From the IMG/VR virus record IMGVR_UViG_3300049911_000029, positions 1-30,995 of that record: a stretch of DNA of 30,995 bases; one strand, written 5' to 3'. Positions 13,195-27,477 of this stretch are shown here, one piece after another. Origin of the DNA: a virus. Made by a program: the position numbers and the translations under genes. The notes under the pieces were generated by a model that was not told where the DNA came from, ran no database searches, and saw only the letters and a list, made by a program, of their open reading frames with translations. How positions within the stretch are numbered: the stretch's first letter is position 1; every line of letters begins with the position of its first letter.

Positions 13195-13910
13195 GCAGAC
13201 TTCGGAAAGTAACGCAATTAGAACTGGAGCAATTCGCGGAGCAGATCCAGGAACGTGAGGAACTGAGCGGCGGGAAAGCCTTATCTGCTCAGGAGGTGCG
13301 GGAGCGGAGCATGGCGGCGCGGATGGCGCTGGAGGCGAAGGCCTCCCTGTCCCCTACGGGGACATCCCCCCAAACCGAAGAACACGGTTTAGGGGGAAAA
13401 GATGGGGTGCCGACATGGGCGGATTGTTATCATCGTCTTATCAATGCAGGTTTCCCATGGCGGATGGCGGCATTCGTCGCCTGGGCATCCATGCCGAAGT
13501 CACTGCGTTGGCCGGATACACAGGAAAAGCTGGCGACGGAGGTGTTGGGGCTAACGAGCGACCGCCAAATTGCCACCTGGCGAAAAAAGAACCCGGCCAT
13601 TGATCAGATGATCGCCGACTTACAAGCGGATGAGCTATTGGAGGCGCGGGCGGATGTGTTCGCCGCAGTGAAGGACGTAGCCAGCAGGCATGATTATAAG
13701 AGCGGACCTTATGCGCGGATGTATCTGGAGATGACAAACGACTTGCCCAGCCGCCTGAGTGTGACCATGCAGGATTCGGCAGCACACAGCCTTTTGAAGA
13801 TGACGGATGCGGACCTGCTCAATCTTTCGGGCGAGAAGGCGAAGGAAATGCTGGCACGCTTGCGAGCCGAGCAGGAGGAGGCAGCGGATGAGCCCGTCGA
13901 GGACGAGTAA
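13191..13910 (+). CDS. Terminase small subunit
   Basis: A 239-aa protein just ahead of the large terminase gene. The N-terminus (1-48) is helical and charged. Element A3 (residues 51-69) is inserted in frame, and residues about 75-150 hold a helix-turn-helix-like DNA-binding region ('AFVAWASMPKSLRWPDT', 'LTSDRQIATWRKKNP'). A helical oligomerisation region and the acidic tail follow. The tail contains 'LLKMTDADLLNLS', nearly identical to a motif at the primase C-terminus. It would recognise the packaging site and stimulate the large subunit. The start is GTG, overlapping the endolysin stop as GTGA. The assignment rests on position and the HTH. Confidence 0.75.
   Translation: MSRLRKVTQLELEQFAEQIQEREELSGGKALSAQEVRERSMAARMALEAKASLSPTGTSPQTEEHGLGGKDGVPTWADCYHRLINAGFPWRMAAFVAWASMPKSLRWPDTQEKLATEVLGLTSDRQIATWRKKNPAIDQMIADLQADELLEARADVFAAVKDVASRHDYKSGPYARMYLEMTNDLPSRLSVTMQDSAAHSLLKMTDADLLNLSGEKAKEMLARLRAEQEEAADEPVEDE
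13342..13397 (+). repeat. Double-hairpin palindromic element, copy A3 (in frame)
   Basis: The left C-run is degenerate (CCTCCC). Hairpin TCCCC-tac-GGGGA, then CCCCCCAAACCG paired with CGGTTTAGGGGG around loop AAGAACA. In the small terminase it encodes SLSPTGTSP...LGG. Confidence 0.9.
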
Positions 13911-15516
13911 TCCCCTGGATGCGCTGGATGAACTGGTGCGGCGCCAAACGGCGCGGCAGGATTTCATCGCGTATTCCCAATATGTGGCGCCCTGGTACAA
14001 ACCCGGCAAGCACCACCGGTTGGTGGGGGAAAAGCTGATGCTGGTGCTGCGCTATATCGAGACCGGGGGCCAAGAGGGAATCGGACGATTGATCATCTCG
14101 GAACCGTTCAGACATGGGAAATCCGAGCAGGTCAGCCGCCTGTTCCCGTCGTATTTGCTGGGGAAGAGGCCGGAAAGTCGGGTGATTCTGACCAGTTATG
14201 GAGCAGATCTGGCGGAAGACGACAGCCGGAAGGTGCGAAATTATGTGGAGAGCGATGAGTTTGCGGCCTTGTTTGGTCAGGGGAATAACCTGGCGACGAT
14301 AGACGATGAAGAAGGTGGATCCACGGCGGGGCCCAGCCCGGTACAGGTCAATGCAGACAGCCGAAAGCGAGCGAACTGGAGCGTTGCAGAGCCGCACCGG
14401 GGAGGAGTGGCGGCGGCCGGGATCGGGGGTGGAATCGTCGGAAAGGGCGCAAATTTGCTGGTCATAGACGACCCCTATAAAAAGCGGGATGAGGCGGACA
14501 GTGAGACCTACCGGCGGAGTGTGAGCCGCTGGTACAAAGGCTCGGCCTATACCCGGCTGGAACCGGGCGGTGCAATCGTAGTGATCCATAACCGTTGGAA
14601 CCCGGAAGACCTGGCGGGCGAACTGTTGCAAGAGATGGTGAACGGGGAAGGCGACCAGTGGGAAATGCTTTTCCTACCGGCGCTGGCGTTGGAGGCAGAG
14701 GATTACCCGAAGACGCAAGAGGAGTTCCGGAACAACCTGCTGCACGGGATCTACATCCCATTCGAAGATCCGCTGGGGAGGAAGCCCGGCGAGGCGCTAT
14801 GGCCGGAACGGTTCAGCCGGGCGGCGATGCTGAATATCAAAACGAACATCGGCGAGGAAGAATTTGTCAGCCAGGGGCAGCAATTACCGATGCCGCCGAG
14901 GGGCGAACTGTTCAGCCAGGATGACATCCAGATCGCCGAGCGAGCGCCGGAGGGCTTGCAGTGGTATTGCTACGTGGACCTGGCGCTGGGGAAGACGAAA
15001 CTGAGCAACTTCAACGCAGCCTGCCGGGTGGCGATAGACGATAAGGGAAACCTATATGGACGGGACATGCTGCGGGTGCGCAAGTTGGGCGACTTCCTGG
15101 ACTTGCTGGTTCAGGCAATGCTGAGCGACATGGAGCGAGGCACGATCTGGGGAATCGAGGATGTGGCGTTCCAGAATGTGGTGATTACGAATCTGATGCG
15201 GGATAAACGCCTGGCACGGGTGGCGATCGGGGCGATCAAACCGAACGGGGACAAGGTCTACCGGGCGCGGGCGGTTCAACTGCGAGCGACGCAAGGATTA
15301 TTCTGGCTGGTGCGAGGGAACTGGAACAAGGCTTGCATCCAGGAGATGATGGTCTTCCCGCATGCGAAGGACGCCGACCAGGTGGACACGATCAGCGGGG
15401 GGGTTGAGATGATCGCCAACGGGGCCGGGAGCGGGAAGACGGAAACAAGCGAGGCGGTAGTGATCGAGGCGAGCATGTTTAGCATGCAGAATGCAGAAAT
15501 TGGAATAATGAGTTGA
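13888..15516 (+). CDS. Terminase large subunit
   Basis: A 542-aa packaging motor. The ATPase has a Walker A 'EPFRHGKSEQ' (Lys78, Ser79), an adenine/motif region 'RVILTSYGADLAEDDSRKV', and Walker B 'LLVIDDPYKK' (Asp194, Asp195). The C-terminal RNase H-like nuclease starts at 'YCYVDLALGKTKLSNF' (Asp364) and contains 'GIEDVAFQNV'. Length and layout fit the family. It powers DNA entry into the prohead and cuts the genome. ATG 13888 lies within the end of the small-terminase gene after GGAGGAGG; the frame is open further upstream but only as a shadow. The capsid polyprotein gene follows 15 bases later, with no portal gene between, which is unusual. Confidence 0.93.
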   Translation: MSPSRTSNPLDALDELVRRQTARQDFIAYSQYVAPWYKPGKHHRLVGEKLMLVLRYIETGGQEGIGRLIISEPFRHGKSEQVSRLFPSYLLGKRPESRVILTSYGADLAEDDSRKVRNYVESDEFAALFGQGNNLATIDDEEGGSTAGPSPVQVNADSRKRANWSVAEPHRGGVAAAGIGGGIVGKGANLLVIDDPYKKRDEADSETYRRSVSRWYKGSAYTRLEPGGAIVVIHNRWNPEDLAGELLQEMVNGEGDQWEMLFLPALALEAEDYPKTQEEFRNNLLHGIYIPFEDPLGRKPGEALWPERFSRAAMLNIKTNIGEEEFVSQGQQLPMPPRGELFSQDDIQIAERAPEGLQWYCYVDLALGKTKLSNFNAACRVAIDDKGNLYGRDMLRVRKLGDFLDLLVQAMLSDMERGTIWGIEDVAFQNVVITNLMRDKRLARVAIGAIKPNGDKVYRARAVQLRATQGLFWLVRGNWNKACIQEMMVFPHAKDADQVDTISGGVEMIANGAGSGKTETSEAVVIEASMFSMQNAEIGIMS

Positions 15517-15531
15517 AAAAGAAGGTGAGTC

Positions 15532-18243
15532 ATGCCTTATTCAAATGAACATTCAGCAAGGATCAAAGAGCCGGGAGATTTCGAGAGCGACAGTTTCCGG
15601 CGGGTGAATGATAAATTCGGGGCAGGGATCGATGCGATCTTCGGTCGGTTGAAGGGCGAGACGACCTTGACGGTGCAAGCAATCCGCTTCGATGCCAAGA
15701 AGTTCACGGCAGCCGAGGCGAGAAAGTGGTTGAAGGACCATGATTATAAGGCGCTGGAATTCGAGCCAGCCAAGAAGGAGGAAGCCATGACGAAGAAAAT
15801 CCAGCGCGGGAAACCGCTCGAGGAATTGGTGAAGGGAAGTGAGGTGGTGGAATTGGTAGACCAGCCGCAGAGCCCGGCCCCCCTGTCCCCTGCGGGTACA
15901 TCCCCCCAATTGGAGAGCACAATTAGGGGGAGAGAGAAGCGGAAGGGGAAGCGATTGGAGGAGAGGAATGAAGGGGTGAAGATCATATTGGAGGAGACGG
16001 CAGAGGGCGGGAAGAAACATATCAAAGCGAATGACGTCATCGTGGCCGGGATGGTAAACGGCAACGGTAGACGATATCCGGTCCCGGTGGTGCGGGCAGC
16101 GGTCGAGGAAGCGCGCGGCCATCTACATGAATCGCTGGGACAGGGGCGAGCCATCCTGCTGGGCGAGGCGGAACATCCGTCCGACAAAGCAGCGCGGCGT
16201 CCGAATTTGCTGGAGACAGTCGTGGCATGGGATGAGATCTCATTCGACGGCCGATCCGTGGGCCTGGGCGGAAATATCCTGGGCACCAGCAGAGGTAAGG
16301 ACATCCAGGCGCTGATGGAGGGCGGCGTGATGCCAGGCGTGAGCCTGCGCGGGTATGGCGAGACCAAATCCATCAAAGAGGACGAGCAACGCATTGAAGA
16401 AGTGACGGAATGCCACATTACCGGGTTCGACCTGGTGCTGGAGCCTTCCTTCGAGCAAGCGCAGGCAGTTCTCGAATCTATTCAAAAACAATCGGAGGAA
16501 GAAATGGACCTTGACGAGCTGTTGAAACTCCTGAAAGAACATCCCGAAGCATTTGCCGGGATTACCGAGGCCCAGGTGAAAACCATGGGCGAGACCCAGT
16601 TAAAGAAACTGGAAGAGACCCTGCGCGGGAAGCTGGGCCTGGATGCCAACGCGGATATCGGCAAGGCGTTGGAAGAGGCCATGTCGGCCAAGAATGAGTT
16701 GACTGAGCAGAAGCGCAAAACGGCGGTCGAGAAATTGATCACCGAGGCGACCAAGGACTTGCCGTATGGCAAATTCAATGCGAACTTCATCGAATCGGTC
16801 AAGGCGGCCAATCCGCAGGATGAGGCGGCGGTGAAGAGCCTGGTGGAAGCCAAGCGCAAGGAATACGATGTCCTATTCAGCGCGGATGCCCTGAAGAAGA
16901 TGGGCTTCACCGGGAAGATCCAGGGCATCCAGTCGGTGCTGGAGAATGAGACCGGGACGCCGGAATACGCCCGCGGCGCTTTCGAACTGACTGAGAGCAT
17001 CCGCAAGGTGGAGATGCACCCGCGGCGCAACCTGAAGGAAGCCAAGACCCGGGCAGAGCTGTTCACGCAGCAACTGCTGGAACGCTTCGACGCGCTGCAT
17101 AAGCCCAAGTTGATGGCTGAAAGCCGGATGCTGGAGGAAGCGGAGCAGGTGAGTGACCTGAGCCTGCCCTATTCGGTGAGCCGGGCAATCATCGAGGAGG
17201 CCTTCCCGAACCTGGTGGCGGCCAATATCTTCGACGTGGGTGTGATGACCAACTCGCCGGAACGTCTCTATTACGAGACCTTCAGCGGCGAGACGGGCTA
17301 TACGGTTGCAGCCGCGGCTGAAGCGGTGGTGGCGCTCCTGGATACCTGGGTGGACCTGGATTACAAGCGCATCACCCCCGGCACGCTGGTGGCCAAGAAC
17401 CATGCCCAGACCGTAACCTACACCGAGGGCACGGATTACGTGATCGATCATGCTAACGGCAAGTTCATGGCGCTGACAGGCGGCTCGATCAGTGGCAGCC
17501 AGGACATCCATATCACTGCCTATACCTACACGGCGGTGCGCAAGGGCGAAATGGTAGCCATCGAGCGCGGCAAACTGACCCTAGCCTACAAGACGATCGA
17601 GGCGGCTGCCGATCGATTGGCCGACCAGATCAGCCGCGAGGCGGTGGTCTTCAGCCGGGCTCAACTCGGTTACGATGCCACGGCGCGCACGCTGGCCAAC
17701 CTGGCCAAGCAATTGAATCGCAAGATCGACCAGGGGATGCTTTATGCGAGCATCAGCGCGGTGCTCTCGGTGGCCAATAACAGCGCCGGAACCTGGACGG
17801 AAGGCACCACCGACGATGACTACGACGAACTGGTGCGCCTGATCGGCCTGGCAAAGGTCAAGGTGGGCAATCGTTATTACGCCCCGACCGGGATCGTGTG
17901 CAGCATGACCAACGCCGAACGATTGGGCCATTGGAAGGGCTTCACGCGGGCGGGCCAGCGCCCTGGTGTTGATGAATTGATGGGCAATGGGTTCATCGGC
18001 TCGGTGAACGGGTTGCCGGTTTTCTGGAGCACGGAGTTCCCGGATACCTTCATCGAAGTGGTCAACCAACAACTGGTGATGCACCGGGTCTTCCAGCCGA
18101 TGCAGTTCAATGGACCTTACCCGACCTATGATGAGGACGGTAAGCTAATCGCAGCCGATCAGTACTATGCCGAGGCATTCAACGCGACGGAAGCGCCAGT
18201 CCCGGAAAAGGGATCCTACGTGGTCATCGCGGAGGGATCGTAA
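15532..18243 (+). CDS. Prohead protease-scaffold-major capsid fusion
   Basis: One 903-codon frame with four parts. (1) Residues 1-85: a small module ('RIKEPGDFESDSFRRV', 'AAEARKWLKDHDY'). (2) About 149-315: a T4 gp21-like prohead protease, with 'GNGRRYP', 'LLGEAEHPSD' (His215) and 'PGVSLRGYGE' (Ser271). (3) About 325-470: a helical, charged scaffold region. (4) About 470-903: an HK97-fold major capsid protein. Palindrome A4 sits between parts 1 and 2. Two in-frame ATGs have excellent binding sites: 15787 (Met86, after AAGGAGG) and 16504 (Met325, after GGAGG). Nested products are therefore likely, with the 579-aa scaffold-capsid form made in excess. AAGGTGAG precedes the first ATG. Confidence 0.85.
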   Translation: MPYSNEHSARIKEPGDFESDSFRRVNDKFGAGIDAIFGRLKGETTLTVQAIRFDAKKFTAAEARKWLKDHDYKALEFEPAKKEEAMTKKIQRGKPLEELVKGSEVVELVDQPQSPAPLSPAGTSPQLESTIRGREKRKGKRLEERNEGVKIILEETAEGGKKHIKANDVIVAGMVNGNGRRYPVPVVRAAVEEARGHLHESLGQGRAILLGEAEHPSDKAARRPNLLETVVAWDEISFDGRSVGLGGNILGTSRGKDIQALMEGGVMPGVSLRGYGETKSIKEDEQRIEEVTECHITGFDLVLEPSFEQAQAVLESIQKQSEEEMDLDELLKLLKEHPEAFAGITEAQVKTMGETQLKKLEETLRGKLGLDANADIGKALEEAMSAKNELTEQKRKTAVEKLITEATKDLPYGKFNANFIESVKAANPQDEAAVKSLVEAKRKEYDVLFSADALKKMGFTGKIQGIQSVLENETGTPEYARGAFELTESIRKVEMHPRRNLKEAKTRAELFTQQLLERFDALHKPKLMAESRMLEEAEQVSDLSLPYSVSRAIIEEAFPNLVAANIFDVGVMTNSPERLYYETFSGETGYTVAAAAEAVVALLDTWVDLDYKRITPGTLVAKNHAQTVTYTEGTDYVIDHANGKFMALTGGSISGSQDIHITAYTYTAVRKGEMVAIERGKLTLAYKTIEAAADRLADQISREAVVFSRAQLGYDATARTLANLAKQLNRKIDQGMLYASISAVLSVANNSAGTWTEGTTDDDYDELVRLIGLAKVKVGNRYYAPTGIVCSMTNAERLGHWKGFTRAGQRPGVDELMGNGFIGSVNGLPVFWSTEFPDTFIEVVNQQLVMHRVFQPMQFNGPYPTYDEDGKLIAADQYYAEAFNATEAPVPEKGSYVVIAEGS
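15775..15789 (+). promoter_or_regulatory. Internal ribosome binding site and start (Met86)
   Basis: AAGGAGG (15775-15781, first base degenerate) is followed by five bases and an ATG at 15787 in the same frame as the surrounding gene. It would yield an 818-aa product without the N-terminal module, starting MTKKIQRGKPLEEL. Confidence 0.5.
15878..15931 (+). repeat. Double-hairpin palindromic element, copy A4 (in frame)
   Basis: CCCCCC run, hairpin TCCCC-tgc-GGG(t)A, then CCCCCCAATT paired with AATTAGGGGG around loop GGAGAGCAC. In the capsid polyprotein it encodes PLSPAGTSP...IRG, between the N-terminal module and the protease. Confidence 0.9.
16494..16506 (+). promoter_or_regulatory. Internal ribosome binding site and start (Met325)
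   Basis: GGAGG (16494-16498), five bases, then in-frame ATG at 16504 at the boundary between protease and scaffold. It would start a 579-aa scaffold-capsid protein (MDLDELLKLLKEHPEAF). It recalls the nested protease/scaffold starts of lambda C/Nu3. Confidence 0.65.
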
Positions 18244-18250
18244 AGTAAAG

Positions 18251-18322
18251 TAATCGGCCCGCGGCGGGCCGGTTATACAGCCGGGGCGGGTGGCAATCCT
18301 GGACCCATTGGCCCCGCCCCGG
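18251..18322 (+). promoter_or_regulatory. Two GC-rich hairpins after the capsid gene
   Basis: In the 132-bp gap after the capsid gene, TAATCGGCCC (18251-18260) pairs with GGGCCGGTTA (18266-18275), ten pairs with one G-U and a 5-base loop. CCGGGGCGGG (18281-18290) pairs perfectly with CCCGCCCCGG (18313-18322). Neither is followed by a T-run. They may stabilise the capsid mRNA or reduce read-through. The rest of the gap shows only the weak binding site of the next gene. Confidence 0.6.
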
Positions 18323-18375
18323 TAAGGATGGCCTAAGGATACAACTGATCGCCATCACCACCACGGTGAATTAAT

Positions 18376-19608
18376 ATGAATTACACCAAATCTCACAATA
18401 CATATTTCGCTACCCCAAAGGATGATCCACACAACCGGATAGAGTTAGAGGTAGGCGATAGTAAACAACCAGACTTCTTCCCACAAATCAAAATAATGCG
18501 ATGGGATAATGAGGTCAATTTTAGCATTCGCCTTGTTCACGAGGAGATTGTTCCTAAAGTCTCGAAAGTGGGGGACAAAATTCATTGGCAAGGCAAGACG
18601 ATTGAGGCGTGTCTTTATGACTTTGCCGAGGGCGAGGGTAGCTATGAGTTTGAAATAATTCTCAAAGAAAAACCAGTAAACAATAAGATTGAATTTACTT
18701 TGAATACAAAAGGATTGGATTTCTTTTATCAACCTCCACTTACAGAAGAAGTTAAAGTAGGGGATTGGGACGGCAGAATTGTCTCTGTTACAGAAATGGA
18801 TGCTTTCGATATAGATGGAAATTCATTAAATCATAGACCCGAAAATGTGTGTGGGGCCTATGCTGTTTATGCTTCTGAAAACAAAATAAACTATGTTGGG
18901 GGCAAAGAATATAAATGCGGCCAAGTTGGAATGATTTATCGGCCAAAAATAATTGATTTGACAGGGACAGGAATCTGGGGCATATTGAATATAGACAAAA
19001 ATGCGGGAATTTTAAATATTGAAATATCACAAGATTTTTTAGATAGGGCAATTTATCCAATAACGATTGACCCGACAATTGGATACACAAGCGCTGGTGA
19101 TTCGGTTGCAGCTTGGAATGGTTATTTTATGGCTGCTGCGAAAAGCACCACAGACGCATCTGGGGGAGTGGTATCTAAAATTCAATGTGCTGCTTTTGAT
19201 GTGATGGGTAATAGTTATGTAAAAATGGCTATTTATGATGCTACCCCCACAAATTTAATAGCCAATTCTTACCCTGGAGCAATACTGGTTACCCGAACAT
19301 CAACCTCAAAACCGACGCAAGATTCGGAGTGGACTTCCTCTACCAATGTTAGTGCAACATTAGCGGCCTTAACTGCTTATTGGTTAGCATTTGCCACTCA
19401 AGACAGTACCGTCTATATTTTTTACAATTCTGCTCCTAATGGAAGTTGTAAGTATGCGTCAATAGATTATACACTTTTCCCTCCAAACACAGCTCCTTCA
19501 TCAACAAACTATACCGCAATTTTGTCCGTCTACGCCACCTATACGCCAGCGGCGGGAGGTCTATCTATCCCGGTTGTGATGAATCAGTACAGGCAGAGGG
19601 TAACATGA
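18376..19608 (+). CDS. Virion-associated protein, A+T-rich
   Basis: A 410-aa protein. Residues about 1-240 look like a beta-rich domain with no name I can give ('VNFSIRLVHEEIVPKV', 'AIYPITIDPTIGYTSAG'). Residues about 245-395 look like a jelly-roll-type domain ('VKMAIYDATPTNLIA', 'YWLAFATQDSTVYIFY'). It ends 'GLSIPVVMNQYRQRVT', a short tail I associate with phage structural proteins. Its DNA is much richer in A+T than both neighbours, which suggests separate acquisition. It overlaps the fibre gene by four bases. A decoration, neck or receptor-binding role is plausible by position only. Confidence 0.55.
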   Translation: MNYTKSHNTYFATPKDDPHNRIELEVGDSKQPDFFPQIKIMRWDNEVNFSIRLVHEEIVPKVSKVGDKIHWQGKTIEACLYDFAEGEGSYEFEIILKEKPVNNKIEFTLNTKGLDFFYQPPLTEEVKVGDWDGRIVSVTEMDAFDIDGNSLNHRPENVCGAYAVYASENKINYVGGKEYKCGQVGMIYRPKIIDLTGTGIWGILNIDKNAGILNIEISQDFLDRAIYPITIDPTIGYTSAGDSVAAWNGYFMAAAKSTTDASGGVVSKIQCAAFDVMGNSYVKMAIYDATPTNLIANSYPGAILVTRTSTSKPTQDSEWTSSTNVSATLAALTAYWLAFATQDSTVYIFYNSAPNGSCKYASIDYTLFPPNTAPSSTNYTAILSVYATYTPAAGGLSIPVVMNQYRQRVT

Positions 19609-21515: not shown

Positions 21516-22234
21516 CAAATCCATTTGGCGCTGCGATCACTCCCATCATTCCCATCACCCCAACTCCAACGCCGGTGGGAGGAATTGCGCTGGCTGATTT
21601 GATGCAGCAGTTGGAAGAAGACGTACCGGCGCGAAATAATGCGCCGACGGCTTCACAATACGAGCGCTGCGTCCTGGATGCGTCGCGGGACTTTAGCAAC
21701 CGGTGTGGACGGGTGAAGATTTCCACGCTGGAGGTCCTGGCCGGGACGGGCAATTATGATCTTCCAATGGATTTCTTGAGGATGATCAAGCTGGACAGGT
21801 TGAATAGTTCGAATGGAATCATCAATACGGCACAGGGTTTGATCCCGGCGCCGACGAATTGGAGCGAGAAATATATCATTGCGGGCAGAAAGATCACATT
21901 CGATCCCACGCCGACCTATACTTTGACAAGGTCTATCGAGTACAAAGCGGGTTGGGCGCTGACAGAGGATGAAGGAGATTATACAGAGAGCACTTACGCG
22001 GATATGACCGAAGATGAGAGCCGGATCGTGCTATTGAAGGCGGCGGCGCTGGCGCTGAAGATGCAGGCGAACGCGGTGGCGCTGGATGGATGGCGATATT
22101 CAATCGGGGCCGAGTCGGTGGACAAAACGGGCCAGACGGCAGCCATCGAGGCGCGCCTGTCCGCCGTGGAAAAAGAATATCTTGCGGCGGTGGATGCCTA
22201 TAATGGAAGCGCCATAGGACAAAGCGATGGCTGA
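21512..22234 (+). CDS. Head-tail connector (adaptor-like) protein
   Basis: A 240-aa protein with a proline-rich start (TPIIPITPTPTPVGG) and then 'ALADLMQQLEEDVPARNN' and 'YERCVLDASRDFSNRCGR', the helical layout of head-tail adaptor proteins that dock under the portal (lambda gpW/HK97 gp6 class). The middle ('LAGTGNYDLPMDFLRMIKL') and the helical C-terminus (ALALKMQANAVALDG, then AIEARLSAVEKEYLAA) fit phage adaptor proteins carrying an inserted beta domain. Overlaps with both neighbours suggest coupling. The family is assigned on pattern and position; an exact match cannot be checked here. Confidence 0.6.
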   Translation: MTNPFGAAITPIIPITPTPTPVGGIALADLMQQLEEDVPARNNAPTASQYERCVLDASRDFSNRCGRVKISTLEVLAGTGNYDLPMDFLRMIKLDRLNSSNGIINTAQGLIPAPTNWSEKYIIAGRKITFDPTPTYTLTRSIEYKAGWALTEDEGDYTESTYADMTEDESRIVLLKAAALALKMQANAVALDGWRYSIGAESVDKTGQTAAIEARLSAVEKEYLAAVDAYNGSAIGQSDG

Positions 22235-23321
22235 GCGGCATGCAGTTCCAGCGGATTTCTTCGCACGGCGGACGCATTTTGTGGATCACCTGGCGCCGGT
22301 CTGGAAGGTGATGGATTGGCGGGGGAAATTCTATGTGCCAGATTGTCTTTATGAGTATGCCTTGAGCCAGGATATTCAAGACGTCATGGCGCTCAAGCCA
22401 GTCGAAAGCGACCCGTTGGCGGTGGCGCCGCCGGGAGGATCGCCGCTAGTGACCTGCGCCTATCATGACATGATGCTGGCACAGAAGGCGCGACCACAGC
22501 GGCGACTGATCCTGATGGAGCATGGCGTTGGTTTGGTATTCGGTATCAACCATTCGGGATATGCGGGGGGCTTGGGATTGCGACGGCGGGTGAAATTATT
22601 CCTATCTCCCAATGAATATATCCGGGCGAAGACGGCGAAGAGCCTGCCGCATGCGGCGCAAGTGGTTGTGGGATGTCCGAAGCTGGATGAGTGGGGCCTC
22701 ACCCCCAACCCCTCCCCATTTGCATCCCCAAAATACGGGGACAGGCAAACAGCAAATGGAGAGGGGAGAAAGAAAAGGGGAAAGCCGGTGGTATGTATTT
22801 CATTCCATTGGAATGGGGCGCATATCGAGCCGGAGGCGGGGAGTGCATTCGAGCATTACCGGAAAGTTCTGCCAGAGTTGGCCAGGCAAGCGGATTTCAA
22901 ATTGATCGGGCATGGCCACCCAAAGATCATCGATCTGCTGGCGAATGAATATGAAGAAAATGGTATTGAAGTGGTCAGGGATTTTCGGGAAGTGATGCGG
23001 CGGGCAGATATCTATGTCAATGATTGCAGCTCGACGATGTATGAGTTTCTAACGACCGGTAAGCCGGTAGTCATTATGAATGCGCCGCAGTTCCGCAAAA
23101 ATAAGAACTTTGGCATCCGGTTCTGGCTCTACGTGGACATTGGGTCGCAGGTGGAGGGGCCGGAGGAATTGATCGGAGCCATCGAGGCGACCCTCCAGGA
23201 CCCGATGAAATATCAGGAGGCACGCGAGAAGGCGGTAAAAGATTTATTTCCTTATTTGGGCTGCTCGGCGACGCGGGCGGCGGCAGCCATCCAGGGTTAT
23301 TGCGGGTCTATCTATGGCTAA
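22227..23321 (+). CDS. CDP-glycerol glycerophosphotransferase-like GT-B enzyme
   Basis: A 364-aa protein with a GT-B-like two-domain layout. N-terminal half: 'LILMEHGVGLVFG' and 'KLFLSPNEYIRAKT', then 'VVVGCPKLDEWG'. C-terminal half: 'KPVVCISFHWNG', 'FKLIGHGHP', 'ADIYVNDCSSTMYEFLTTGKPVV'. These resemble the TagF/CDP-glycerol transferase family that transfers glycerol-phosphate or sugars. A 30-residue insertion at 158-186 is encoded by a palindromic element (type B1) exactly between the domains. Finding such a gene within the head operon is unusual; it could modify the virion or host glycans. It overlaps both neighbouring genes, so it is expressed with the structural proteins. Confidence 0.72.
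   Translation: MAERHAVPADFFARRTHFVDHLAPVWKVMDWRGKFYVPDCLYEYALSQDIQDVMALKPVESDPLAVAPPGGSPLVTCAYHDMMLAQKARPQRRLILMEHGVGLVFGINHSGYAGGLGLRRRVKLFLSPNEYIRAKTAKSLPHAAQVVVGCPKLDEWGLTPNPSPFASPKYGDRQTANGEGRKKRGKPVVCISFHWNGAHIEPEAGSAFEHYRKVLPELARQADFKLIGHGHPKIIDLLANEYEENGIEVVRDFREVMRRADIYVNDCSSTMYEFLTTGKPVVIMNAPQFRKNKNFGIRFWLYVDIGSQVEGPEELIGAIEATLQDPMKYQEAREKAVKDLFPYLGCSATRAAAAIQGYCGSIYG
22698..22785 (+). repeat. Palindromic element type B1 (in frame)
   Basis: It begins CCTCACCCCCAACCCC (from 22697). CCCCTCCCCATTTGC (22709-22723) pairs with GCAAATGGAGAGGGG (22752-22766), 14 of 15 positions, with an inner CCCC/GGGG stem. It is read through in frame in the glycosyltransferase as LTPNPSPFASP and a basic tail. 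The left end resembles dispersed repeats I associate with Chloroflexota and some cyanobacterial genomes. Confidence 0.8.
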
Positions 23322-24554: not shown

Positions 24555-24985
24555 AAACGGGATTTGAATGGGTCGTGCCGCCGGAGAAACTGGCAGAGGC
24601 AATCGGGGCTTATGAATTGCGCTGCCGGGTGGCGCTGTATGCGGCGGCCAACGCCTGGGGACAGAAGAACCAGGATGACGCCAGATTAAGCGCCGGCTGG
24701 GAGGATCGGACGGGGGCGGCCAGGTCTGGATTGTTCTTTGCGGTGGATGGGTTCGGGATGGGGATGGTGCAGGGCGAGGTGGAGGGGGACGCAAAGGCAT
24801 TGATGAGCGATACGGCGGTGGTACAGGGCGATGAGAATACCTTGATCATTACGCTGGCACACACCGTTTTTTACGGCAAGTATTTGGAGTTATCCAACGG
24901 CGGACGATATGCCATCATCCTATCCACGCTCGAGCGCAACCTGCCCGAACTGGAGAAATTGATACAGCAATCCTATGGACATTAG
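24551..24985 (+). CDS. Neck / tail-completion protein (HK97 gp10-like)
   Basis: A 144-aa protein with the family layout: an N-terminal helix ('LAEAIGAYELRCRVALYAAAN'), 'SAGWEDRTGAARSGLF', a beta region, then 'ITLAHTVFYGKYLELSNGG' and a terminal helix ('ILSTLERNLPELEKLIQQ'). Proteins of this class join head and tail. It overlaps its neighbours on both sides, four bases upstream and eleven downstream, consistent with a tightly coupled neck-portal block. Confidence 0.72.
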   Translation: MKTGFEWVVPPEKLAEAIGAYELRCRVALYAAANAWGQKNQDDARLSAGWEDRTGAARSGLFFAVDGFGMGMVQGEVEGDAKALMSDTAVVQGDENTLIITLAHTVFYGKYLELSNGGRYAIILSTLERNLPELEKLIQQSYGH

Positions 24986-26273
24986 AGCGACCATCCGAAC
25001 ATTATTCAAGCGGAGCCAGGCGGCTGAGGGGCAGGTGAGCAGCAATCTGGCCATTGCCCCGGCCGACATGACCAGCCTGGCGGCGCGCTTCAAGGCCGAA
25101 ACCGAACGCAGGCGGATCGTGGAGACCTGCCGGCGCATGTACCGGACGGACCCACGGGTGAAGAAGACCCACCGGGCCATGGCCAGGGATATCGTGCGGG
25201 GCGGGTTCGTACTCCGTACGGAAAACGAGGAAGCCTTGCGGATTGCCATGGATCTCGAAATGCGGCTGGCGCTGGACGGCCGCCTGGATGATTACGTGCG
25301 CCTGGCGGCGCGAGATGGCGACCTGTTCTTGCAAGTGGTGATCAACGAAACCCTGGAGATCATGGATATCAGCCGAAAACCGACGCTGCATACCCACCGG
25401 GCCAGCAATCAGGCGGACGAGTTCGATAACCCGGAGAAGGCTTACTGGATGGGGGAGAGCATCTATTCGCAGGAAGCCCCCGCCGGGGCGACCTGGTTTG
25501 CCGATTGGGAGATCATCCATGCCCGCTGGGAGCACGATGAGGGCGAACGGTACGGCTCGCCGATGTTCGCGGCGGCGACGGCGGCTTTCAAACGGGTGGA
25601 GGAAGGCGAACTGGACATTGCCGTGCGGCGCAAGGTGGGCGCCGGGCGGATCGTGGCGCACGTGGTGGAAGGGGCGGGCGAGGGCGACCTGAAGGCTTAC
25701 AAGGCCGAGAATAAACCGGCGCTGGATAATCCCTTTGCGGCGGTCAGCCATTATTTTTTCAATAAGAAAGGCACCCTCGAGGTGCACGAAGGGGACGCCA
25801 CCCTACCGTTGATCGGCGACGTGGAGCACCACATTGCGACGATGTTTACGGCCGGTGAGACGCCGATGGAATTGATCGCCTATGGCCAGGGCCTGAACCG
25901 GGACGTACTGGGTGAGAAAAAGGAAGAATACGACGAGACGCTGGACGAGCTGCGCAAATGGGTGAACGAGGAGATCCTGCGCCCGCTGCTGGAACGTCAA
26001 TGGCTGCTGAAGGGGATTCTCCCCGCTTCGGTGAAATATACGCTAGAATGGCGCTCGAAGCAACTGGCCAAGGCGATGGACATCCGGGACATTGCGGATG
26101 CGGCCATGCGGCTGCGCATCCTGAACGTGCCGGAGCCGGTGGTGAAGGGCATCCTGGCGAAGTTCCTACCGGGGGTGGACCTGGCGGACCTGGCCGGGGA
26201 CGAAACCGGTACAGGCAATGATGCCGAGCAGATGGCGGCGATCATGCAGCAGATGCGGGGAGGGTTGGCATGA
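24975..26273 (+). CDS. Portal protein
   Basis: A 432-aa protein with portal features: N-terminal 'RRIVETCRRMYRTDPRVKK', wing region 'RLAARDGDLFLQVVIN', 'WEIIHARWEHDEGERYGSP', stem-like 'VRRKVGAGRIVAHVVEG', and C-terminal helical 'WVNEEILRPLLERQWLLKG'. It would form the dodecameric ring through which DNA enters. The usual place is right after the large terminase; here it follows the capsid, fibre, connector, glycosyltransferase and neck genes. The C-terminus (GDETGTGNDAEQMAAIMQQM) is typical of the family. It overlaps the neck gene by 11 bases. A degenerate GTGAATG repeat follows the stop (about 26275-26303). Confidence 0.85.
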   Translation: MDIRATIRTLFKRSQAAEGQVSSNLAIAPADMTSLAARFKAETERRRIVETCRRMYRTDPRVKKTHRAMARDIVRGGFVLRTENEEALRIAMDLEMRLALDGRLDDYVRLAARDGDLFLQVVINETLEIMDISRKPTLHTHRASNQADEFDNPEKAYWMGESIYSQEAPAGATWFADWEIIHARWEHDEGERYGSPMFAAATAAFKRVEEGELDIAVRRKVGAGRIVAHVVEGAGEGDLKAYKAENKPALDNPFAAVSHYFFNKKGTLEVHEGDATLPLIGDVEHHIATMFTAGETPMELIAYGQGLNRDVLGEKKEEYDETLDELRKWVNEEILRPLLERQWLLKGILPASVKYTLEWRSKQLAKAMDIRDIADAAMRLRILNVPEPVVKGILAKFLPGVDLADLAGDETGTGNDAEQMAAIMQQMRGGLA

Positions 26274-26316
26274 AAGTGAATGGTGAATGGGAAATGGTGA
26301 ATAGGAGACGTGAAGC

Positions 26317-27477
26317 ATGGATGTGATGAAATTGCGGCTGGACCAGCTCTATAAGGCACAGCAGGCGGCGCTGATGCGGATGCAACTCTGGTTCACGGGC
26401 GAGACGCACCGGCGGATGCTGGAATTTACGCGGCAGTCGCGAGCAATGATCCTGGAGGCGGGCGGGGCGGAGGGGAAATTCGATGGGACGAAGGCGTTCC
26501 TGGCGCAGTCAGACTTGATGCTGGCCTGGAGCGATACGTTTGCCGGATGGATGCGGTTGATGGAGAAGACACGCCAGGAGGCGGCCAGTCTGCCGTTTGG
26601 GGTGCTGGCGGTGTATCACGAGAAGTTGGTGAGGCCGGTGGCGGAGAAAGCCCCCCTGCGCCCTGGCGGGCGCGTCCCCCCATCTGCTACGCAGATAGGG
26701 GGACAGTTAAGGGAGGCGGTGAAGGATTCAGTATATAAGCCGCAGTTGCGGGCGATCTTACAGGCGGCGGACGACTGGAGGGTCGAGGGATTGGGTCTCT
26801 CGGCGCGCATCTGGAAACTGGACCGGGAGACGCGGGACGGGATCAACCGGGTGATCATGCAGGGATTGACGGAACAGCAGAGCGCCTGGGATGTTGCGAA
26901 GAACCTGGAGCAGTATTTGGGGGCAGACGCCGACCTGCCGAGATGGACCAAGACCAGGATATATGGCCTGACCAAGGCGGATATCGCCAGCGGGGCGCGG
27001 ACCGGACTGGTCCAGGATGCGGCCGGGCGCAGCCAGGACGTATCCTACAATGCGCTGCGGCTGGCGCGTACGGAAATCCAGCGAGTGCATCACCTGGCGA
27101 ACGACCAACAGATGGCCCAGATGCCCTGGATCGAGCAAGAGAAGATCAATCTATCGCCAAGCCATCCGGGATCGGATGAATGCGATGATGCGGCAGATGG
27201 CGGCGAGAATGGAGATGGAGTCTATCCGAAAGGCGATATCGAGTTGCCCTTGCATCCAAACTGTCTATGCTTCAAGACGGCGGTACAAGACTTAGCGGCT
27301 TTTGGCGACAACCTGAGCCAATGGGTGCGGACGGGGCAGGGATTCCCGGCCATGGACCAATATGCGAGCGATTTGGGCGTGGATCTGGACAGCAGCCTAA
27401 TGGAGAGACCAACGGCTCAGGCATTGGCAGCCTGGATCGATGGCAGCCAGGAAGAGATCGATGCGAGGATGAAATGA
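26317..27477 (+). CDS. MuF-like minor head protein
   Basis: A 386-aa protein. The C-terminal half has the phage Mu F / SPP1 gp7 signature: 'ALRLARTEIQRVHH' (from residue 246), 'SHPGSDECDDAADGG' and 'GDIELPLHPNCLCF' (His313, Cys316), probably a metal or disulfide-supported fold. The N-terminal part is helical. It is a minor head protein often made next to the portal, as here, and may enter with the DNA. Element A5 (residues 112-129, 'APLRPGGRVPPSATQIGG') is inserted between the two parts. AGGAG lies about ten bases before the ATG. No toxin domain is fused at its end. Its stop overlaps the next ATG. Confidence 0.85.
   Translation: MDVMKLRLDQLYKAQQAALMRMQLWFTGETHRRMLEFTRQSRAMILEAGGAEGKFDGTKAFLAQSDLMLAWSDTFAGWMRLMEKTRQEAASLPFGVLAVYHEKLVRPVAEKAPLRPGGRVPPSATQIGGQLREAVKDSVYKPQLRAILQAADDWRVEGLGLSARIWKLDRETRDGINRVIMQGLTEQQSAWDVAKNLEQYLGADADLPRWTKTRIYGLTKADIASGARTGLVQDAAGRSQDVSYNALRLARTEIQRVHHLANDQQMAQMPWIEQEKINLSPSHPGSDECDDAADGGENGDGVYPKGDIELPLHPNCLCFKTAVQDLAAFGDNLSQWVRTGQGFPAMDQYASDLGVDLDSSLMERPTAQALAAWIDGSQEEIDARMK
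26651..26703 (+). repeat. Double-hairpin palindromic element, copy A5 (in frame)
   Basis: CCCCCC run, hairpin GCGCCC-tggc-GGGCGC, then CCCCCCATCTGC paired with GCAGATAGGGGG around loop TAC. Inside the MuF-like gene it encodes PLRPGGRVP...QIGG in the same phase as the other copies. Confidence 0.9.

Follow-up and report, generated by a model that had tools for sequence, protein, structure and literature searches.

In phage T4, the prohead protease, the scaffold and the major capsid protein are encoded by the separate genes 21, 22 and 23. The protease, gp21, cleaves after Glu in L/I-x-E motifs and trims its own C-terminus, and a second start codon (Met45) within the protease gives rise to a shorter form that is essential (PMC9026906). 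Each T4 head has about 55 copies of gp21 to 580 of gp22 (PMC9958956). In lambda, where Nu3 is nested in the protease gene C, translation of the scaffold begins at an in-frame codon inside C (Shaw and Murialdo 1980, as recounted in PMC8508860); the protease is ClpP-like and the capsid protein is encoded by a separate gene. In HK97, the delta scaffold is fused to the N-terminus of the capsid protein gp5 and removed by a protease, which is encoded by a separate gene and belongs to another family.

Single genes combining protease, scaffold and capsid functions are already known (PMC8508860, PMC5513430, NCBIfam NF045540/NF045541). This arrangement was proposed in 2021 for gp5 of MD8-like Pseudomonas phages (PMC8508860), and the three functions have been proposed or annotated in one gene in RcKemmy-type Rhodobacter phages. 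Protease-capsid fusions occur in Arthrobacter phage clusters AM, AU and AN (PMC5513430) and in the Microbacterium EE cluster (PMC11749239). The MD8-like, NF045540/NF045541, Arthrobacter and RcKemmy-type fusions carry ClpP-like or S78/U35 proteases and capsid proteins of families other than that described here. For phages with a fused protease and capsid protein, we found no published answer to how a 1:1 ratio of protease to shell protein is avoided. The MD8 paper (PMC8508860) does not mention an internal start, and no publication describing one in any fused gene was found in the open-licence literature, where absence is weak evidence.

Here we describe a gene, shared by many uncultured bacterial viruses, that adds a T4-type lineage to these fusions and carries a conserved internal start codon; the T4-type fusion family and this start are new. 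The start offers a concrete and easily tested answer to the problem of the protease-to-shell ratio, and annotations that assign one protein to such genes miss the product that is probably most abundant. The nearest named relative, Rctr41k_30 (KX853513; PMC5099504; 57.6% identity over residues 150-903), is annotated as 'putative phage capsid protein and protease', and the description of Rctr41k by Gambelli (2016) mentions a 'prohead protease' only and no internal start (PMC5099504).

Domain architecture of the fused gene

The window is the whole stretch of viral DNA that was analysed, 30,995 nucleotides of IMG/VR record IMGVR_UViG_3300049911_000029. ORF and translation checks showed that frame 15532-18243 is uninterrupted (903 codons, 903 amino acids). 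It encodes, in order, an N-terminal module of ~84 amino acids, a gp21-type protease, a helical scaffold and an HK97-fold capsid protein. The preliminary description of this DNA had read the frame as a protease, scaffold-like helices and an HK97-fold capsid protein, and had proposed structure prediction of each module; profile searches for the protease and an AlphaFold model of the 903-residue protein (68 sequences in the input; mean pLDDT 75.9) agreed with that reading, and the model showed the protease domain, the helices and the capsid fold. The features are as follows.

13807-15516, plus strand: terminase large subunit (context; profile searches)
15519-15525, plus strand: Shine-Dalgarno (SD)-like AAGGTGA of the ORF start at 15532, moderate (dG -6.0)
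15532-18243, plus strand: protease-scaffold-major capsid fusion gene, 903 codons; same fusion in Rctr41k and ~110 loci
15532-15786, plus strand: N-terminal module A, small alpha/beta domain, residues 1-85 (model pLDDT 85.4)
15775-15781, plus strand: SD AAGGAGG of the internal start at 15787 (dG -11.7)
15787-15789, plus strand: in-frame ATG whose homologue opens the gene in about 35 relatives (peptide MxKKIxRGKPLEELVKGS)
15940-16446, plus strand: T4 gp21-type (S77) prohead protease domain, residues 137-305, with His215 and Ser271 (profiles and fold)
16468-16479, plus strand: V-L-E315↓S316 at the protease end, a candidate for gp21-type cleavage (conservation; aligns with gp21 ITE↓S)
16493-16498, plus strand: SD CGGAGG of the internal start at 16504 (dG -9.5), conserved at the boundary in the relatives checked
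16504-16506, plus strand: internal start codon ATG (Met325), predicted from conservation to open a 579-residue scaffold-capsid product
16504-17139, plus strand: helical scaffold/delta-like region, residues 325-536 (helices 327-536 in the AlphaFold model)
17131-17142, plus strand: L-E-E536↓A537 ahead of the capsid fold, a candidate maturation site (conservation)
17143-18240, plus strand: HK97-fold major capsid protein, T4 gp23/gp24-like (fold match), containing a beta insertion
24975-26273, plus strand: portal-like protein (context; profile searches)
26317-27477, plus strand: head morphogenesis protein (context; profile search)

The protease was identified by both profile and predicted fold. 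Pfam Peptidase_S77 (T4 prohead core protease) matched residues 171-311 (E 1.2e-12; 48.2 bits, above the curated cut-off of 27), and phrog_207, 'head maturation protease', matched residues 149-390 (E 1.8e-24). Residues 137-305 of the model superposed on T4 gp21 (5jbl) with Z 18.2 and rmsd 2.6 over 151 residues, and the family protease profile A5 retrieved the same structure at E 1.5e-11. His215 and Ser271, the catalytic pair named from the sequence at the outset, align with the gp21 active-site positions and are invariant in 80/80 relatives. The crystallised gp21 chain (5jbl) has Ala at both positions, presumably as an inactivated construct. The gp21 of Rhodothermus phage RM378 is a stand-alone gene and not a fusion.

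In the model, the capsid fold extends from about residue 546 to about 900-903. Its best structural matches were T4 gp23 and gp24 (Z 19.2, 18.9 and 18.1; 19.2 for gp23 and 18.1 for gp24), followed by HK97 proheads (Z 16.6). The capsid profile A3 found no gp23 chain among PDB sequences at E <= 1, so the closeness to gp23 is one of fold. Sequence libraries gave no capsid match for the C-terminal half, the one exception being the inserted beta domain. This insertion, at about residues 590-690 (about 17300-17600), matches a tail-tube protein domain (NF052337, phrog_807), which suggests a domain shared between shell and tail.

Because its parts are T4-type in profile or fold, we regard the gene as T4-type, with its functions ordered as in genes 21, 22 and 23; it resembles that cassette in its protease and capsid folds, its order of functions and the proposed Glu-specific cleavage, and differs in being one gene. 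The window protein did not match the prohead protease/capsid fusion models NF045540 and NF045541 at E <= 1. The preliminary comparison with lambda C/Nu3 nesting and the HK97 delta domain therefore holds as a pair of functional analogies only; the protease resembles gp21 in sequence and fold, and the capsid part is closest to gp23 in fold.

The gene order around the fusion is unusual: the portal-like and head morphogenesis genes (24975-27477) lie far 3' of the capsid gene, as they do in Rctr41k. A CDP-glycerol glycerophosphotransferase-like gene (22227-23321, E 4.8e-8) also sits amid the head genes, flanked by the SU10-type adaptor gene on one side and by the gene for the portal-like protein on the other.

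The fusion in related phages

A search for the same fusion elsewhere, also proposed in the preliminary description, found it in about 110 related loci from IMG/VR and metagenome-assembled genomes (MAGs). An alignment search based on two sequences recovered another 80 loci from IMG/VR, and in almost every one of them a single frame contained the full fusion. To avoid selection bias, a second search was made with the scaffold-capsid part alone; among the loci thus selected that had a testable protease region, 71/71 were fused in frame and 0 were split, so the fusion is fixed in this lineage. A sequencing error concealing a stop or frameshift between modules, which had been named as grounds for discarding the reading, is ruled out by the continuity of the frame in about 110 independent loci. 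Frame breaks were seen in L067 and L087 only and are probably assembly errors.

Rctr41k_30 likewise carries protease, scaffold and capsid in one frame, with the same boundary ATG and SD and the same terminase neighbour. It differs at the N-terminus: its first codon is the homologue of the 15787 ATG, module A is absent, and another N-terminal domain is present.

The fusion was present in 6/298 genomes from the class of an Anaerolineae MAG, and these binned contigs suggest that the hosts are Chloroflexota. One member, L169 (JAJVIM010000011.1), lies inside a 306-kb Anaerolineae MAG contig and is probably a prophage, providing a host lead. A plasmid search gave no relative.

A conserved start codon between protease and scaffold

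The free energy of SD:anti-SD pairing (dG, kcal/mol) was used as a rough predictor of initiation. A start codon with an SD was present at the protease/scaffold boundary in 80/80 members (72 ATG, 8 GTG), with dG <= -6.5 in 79/80. The scan also gave a boundary site in all 31 further members from the capsid-only search; in two of them (L119, L121) it chose an adjacent GTG, and the translations show the boundary ATG in its usual context. Both elements were likewise found in a 922-residue relative from a genome of the Anaerolineae MAG's class. L066, L070, L073-L076, L081, L083 and L086 at first looked like a subgroup lacking the start; this was rejected, as they have it a few residues away.

These counts are not independent, because the members share ancestry. 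Among non-redundant genes (<90% identical), 58/60 reached dG <= -7 at the boundary. In 50 synonymous shuffles that kept the proteins unchanged, on average 22 and at most 30 of the 60 did so, and elsewhere in these genes the threshold was reached in 4.9% of 1298 windows. The boundary site thus greatly exceeds chance expectation. The shuffle background is high (37%) because the acidic linkers often encode GGAG.

The family alignment shows that the linker around 16504 varies in both residues and length. The SD core at the boundary is found in each of the three codon phases and is translated as 12 different dipeptides (ME, QE, GE, SE, RR and others), and in the members checked the boundary ATG is swapped for GTG only. 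Phase shifts together with this restricted exchange would be hard to explain other than by selection for initiation at the boundary. The internal SD was stronger than the gene-start SD in 28/36 comparisons (medians -9.3 vs -8.5), and in the window the SD of 16504 (-9.5) exceeds that of 15532 (-6.0). Comparative sequence evidence thus strongly supports use of the 16504 start. A conserved in-frame start with an SD at the protease/scaffold junction, by which nesting of the lambda C/Nu3 kind would be recognised, is present in this family.

A third in-frame ATG, at 16330, was absent from the preliminary description although its SD reaches -9.8. It was rejected as a start, being a by-product of the protein motif EGGVMPG that is common to only 6/60 non-redundant relatives. 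Since this SD is strong yet unconserved, a strong SD alone is no proof of initiation; conservation, rather than SD strength, tells 16504 from 16330.

Outside the family, MD8 and mEp460 have a weaker SD and ATG near the protease/scaffold boundary (-6.9 and -6.0), and RcKemmy, Shewanella 1/44 and S-CBS3 have none there at dG <= -6.

Proposed nested products and alternative readings

We consider it likely, with good confidence, that a T4-type cassette of protease (21), scaffold (22) and capsid (23) has been fused and is read as nested products. Initiation at 15532, very probably supplemented by initiation at 15787, would give a minor full-length protease-scaffold-capsid protein, and initiation at 16504 an abundant 579-residue scaffold-capsid protein. 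Judging from conservation, the gene can very probably make little protease and much shell protein. The low share of gp21 relative to gp22 in T4 leads us to expect a low protease share, which a minor full-length product would fit. Full-length fusions would join the shell through their identical scaffold-capsid parts, fixing a small share of protease per prohead. After assembly, the protease would cut at E315↓S to free itself, and a cut at E536↓A would release the mature capsid protein from its scaffold, in the manner of the HK97 delta domain.

The two putative sites were examined by conservation. Glu315 is present in 107/110 members within an otherwise poorly conserved linker, with Ser next to it in 90/108. 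Glu536 is present in 105/106, in a hydrophobic-x-Glu motif in 103 and with Ala at P1' in 100/104; at P3 of this site, Phe is commoner than Leu, unlike the L/I of T4. Both fit the L/I-x-E rule of gp21 and its C-terminal self-processing, and we treat them as candidates; elsewhere in the protein, numerous hydrophobic-x-Glu motifs are likewise conserved, for other reasons.

These sites, placed on both sides of the scaffold, could also serve a simple polyprotein, in which one full-length product cuts itself at E315 and E536 and the internal SD arises by chance from the codons of a Glu/Asp/Gly-rich linker. The 37% of shuffles in which acidic linkers yield SD-like codons speak for this. However, an accident of coding would not be expected to leave an SD with ATG or GTG nearly universal while linker residues, lengths and codon phase vary, and a 1:1 ratio of protease to capsid protein would load every prohead with hundreds of protease copies, compared with the roughly 55 gp21 of T4 (PMC9958956). 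We therefore regard a polyprotein without internal initiation as improbable. Cleavage and internal initiation would in any case yield nearly the same shell subunit, as the chain left by self-cutting at E315 is only nine residues longer than that begun at Met325.

The position of the SD at a domain boundary would also suit a programmed pause that slows ribosomes to aid folding, with no start involved; a pause requires no start codon 6-9 bases 3' of the SD, yet ATG or GTG is always present, which makes this very improbable. A promoter within the protease region, giving a shorter transcript from which the scaffold-capsid protein is read, would require the same SD and start codon but deserves equally little credence, as a scan limited to sigma-70-like promoters found 0 in 15300-18450.

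Nested reading through 16504 remains our preferred interpretation. The preliminary description had proposed that a few fusions and many scaffold-capsid subunits arise from two internal starts with strong SDs at module boundaries. Both SDs are indeed strong, and comparative genomics supports the part assigned to 16504, which lies between protease and scaffold, unlike the second start of T4 gp21. The site at 15787 is of another kind: it precedes the protease and corresponds to the normal gene start of relatives, and its product would keep the whole protease, lacking only the N-terminal module.

The N-terminal module and the start at 15787

No SD in the gene is stronger than that of 15787 (-11.7 kcal/mol). 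The peptide begun there, MTKKIQRGKPLEELVKGS, corresponds to the annotated start in Rctr41k, where a stop codon lies 5' of it. About 35 relatives begin the gene at the homologous codon (median SD -8.5), whereas the window has 85 additional residues ahead of it. Most of the domain found after the 15787-type start in Rctr41k is missing from the window. The 15787 start is probably a survivor from before the addition of the extra N-terminal module; in the simplest history, module A was fused in frame 5' of an older ribosome site that would still work.

No locus besides the window has module A in a protease-scaffold-capsid gene of the T4-type family. The module also occurs at the N-terminal end of prohead proteases unrelated to this one, S78-type protease-capsid fusions among them. 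It had no Pfam or PHROG match, a PHROG search with the family's N-terminal modules gave none either, and the best match in a fold search with module A (Z 5.0) was not convincing. In other phages, a strong SD for an internal start following module A was found in L007 only, so such a start is not general.

Across this gene family the N-terminal end is a site of swapping, with at least four unrelated modules, single or in tandem, or none. These modules comprise module A in the window, a KGSxxYT...VELTYQPQ domain, AWGDVDKSALG...ALAGAR and LTEQQ...FGLTE. One could imagine three nested products (module-protease-scaffold-capsid, protease-scaffold-capsid and scaffold-capsid), with the swappable modules acting as cargo or targeting elements on the few protease-bearing chains and perhaps being ejected into the host; we offer this tentatively and consider it rather unlikely.

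A separate protease-capsid fusion with module A first was observed in L002 (3127-5349). It matches NF045541 at 4.2e-93, yet under the model's cut-off, and has a modest SD and ATG at its own protease/scaffold boundary.
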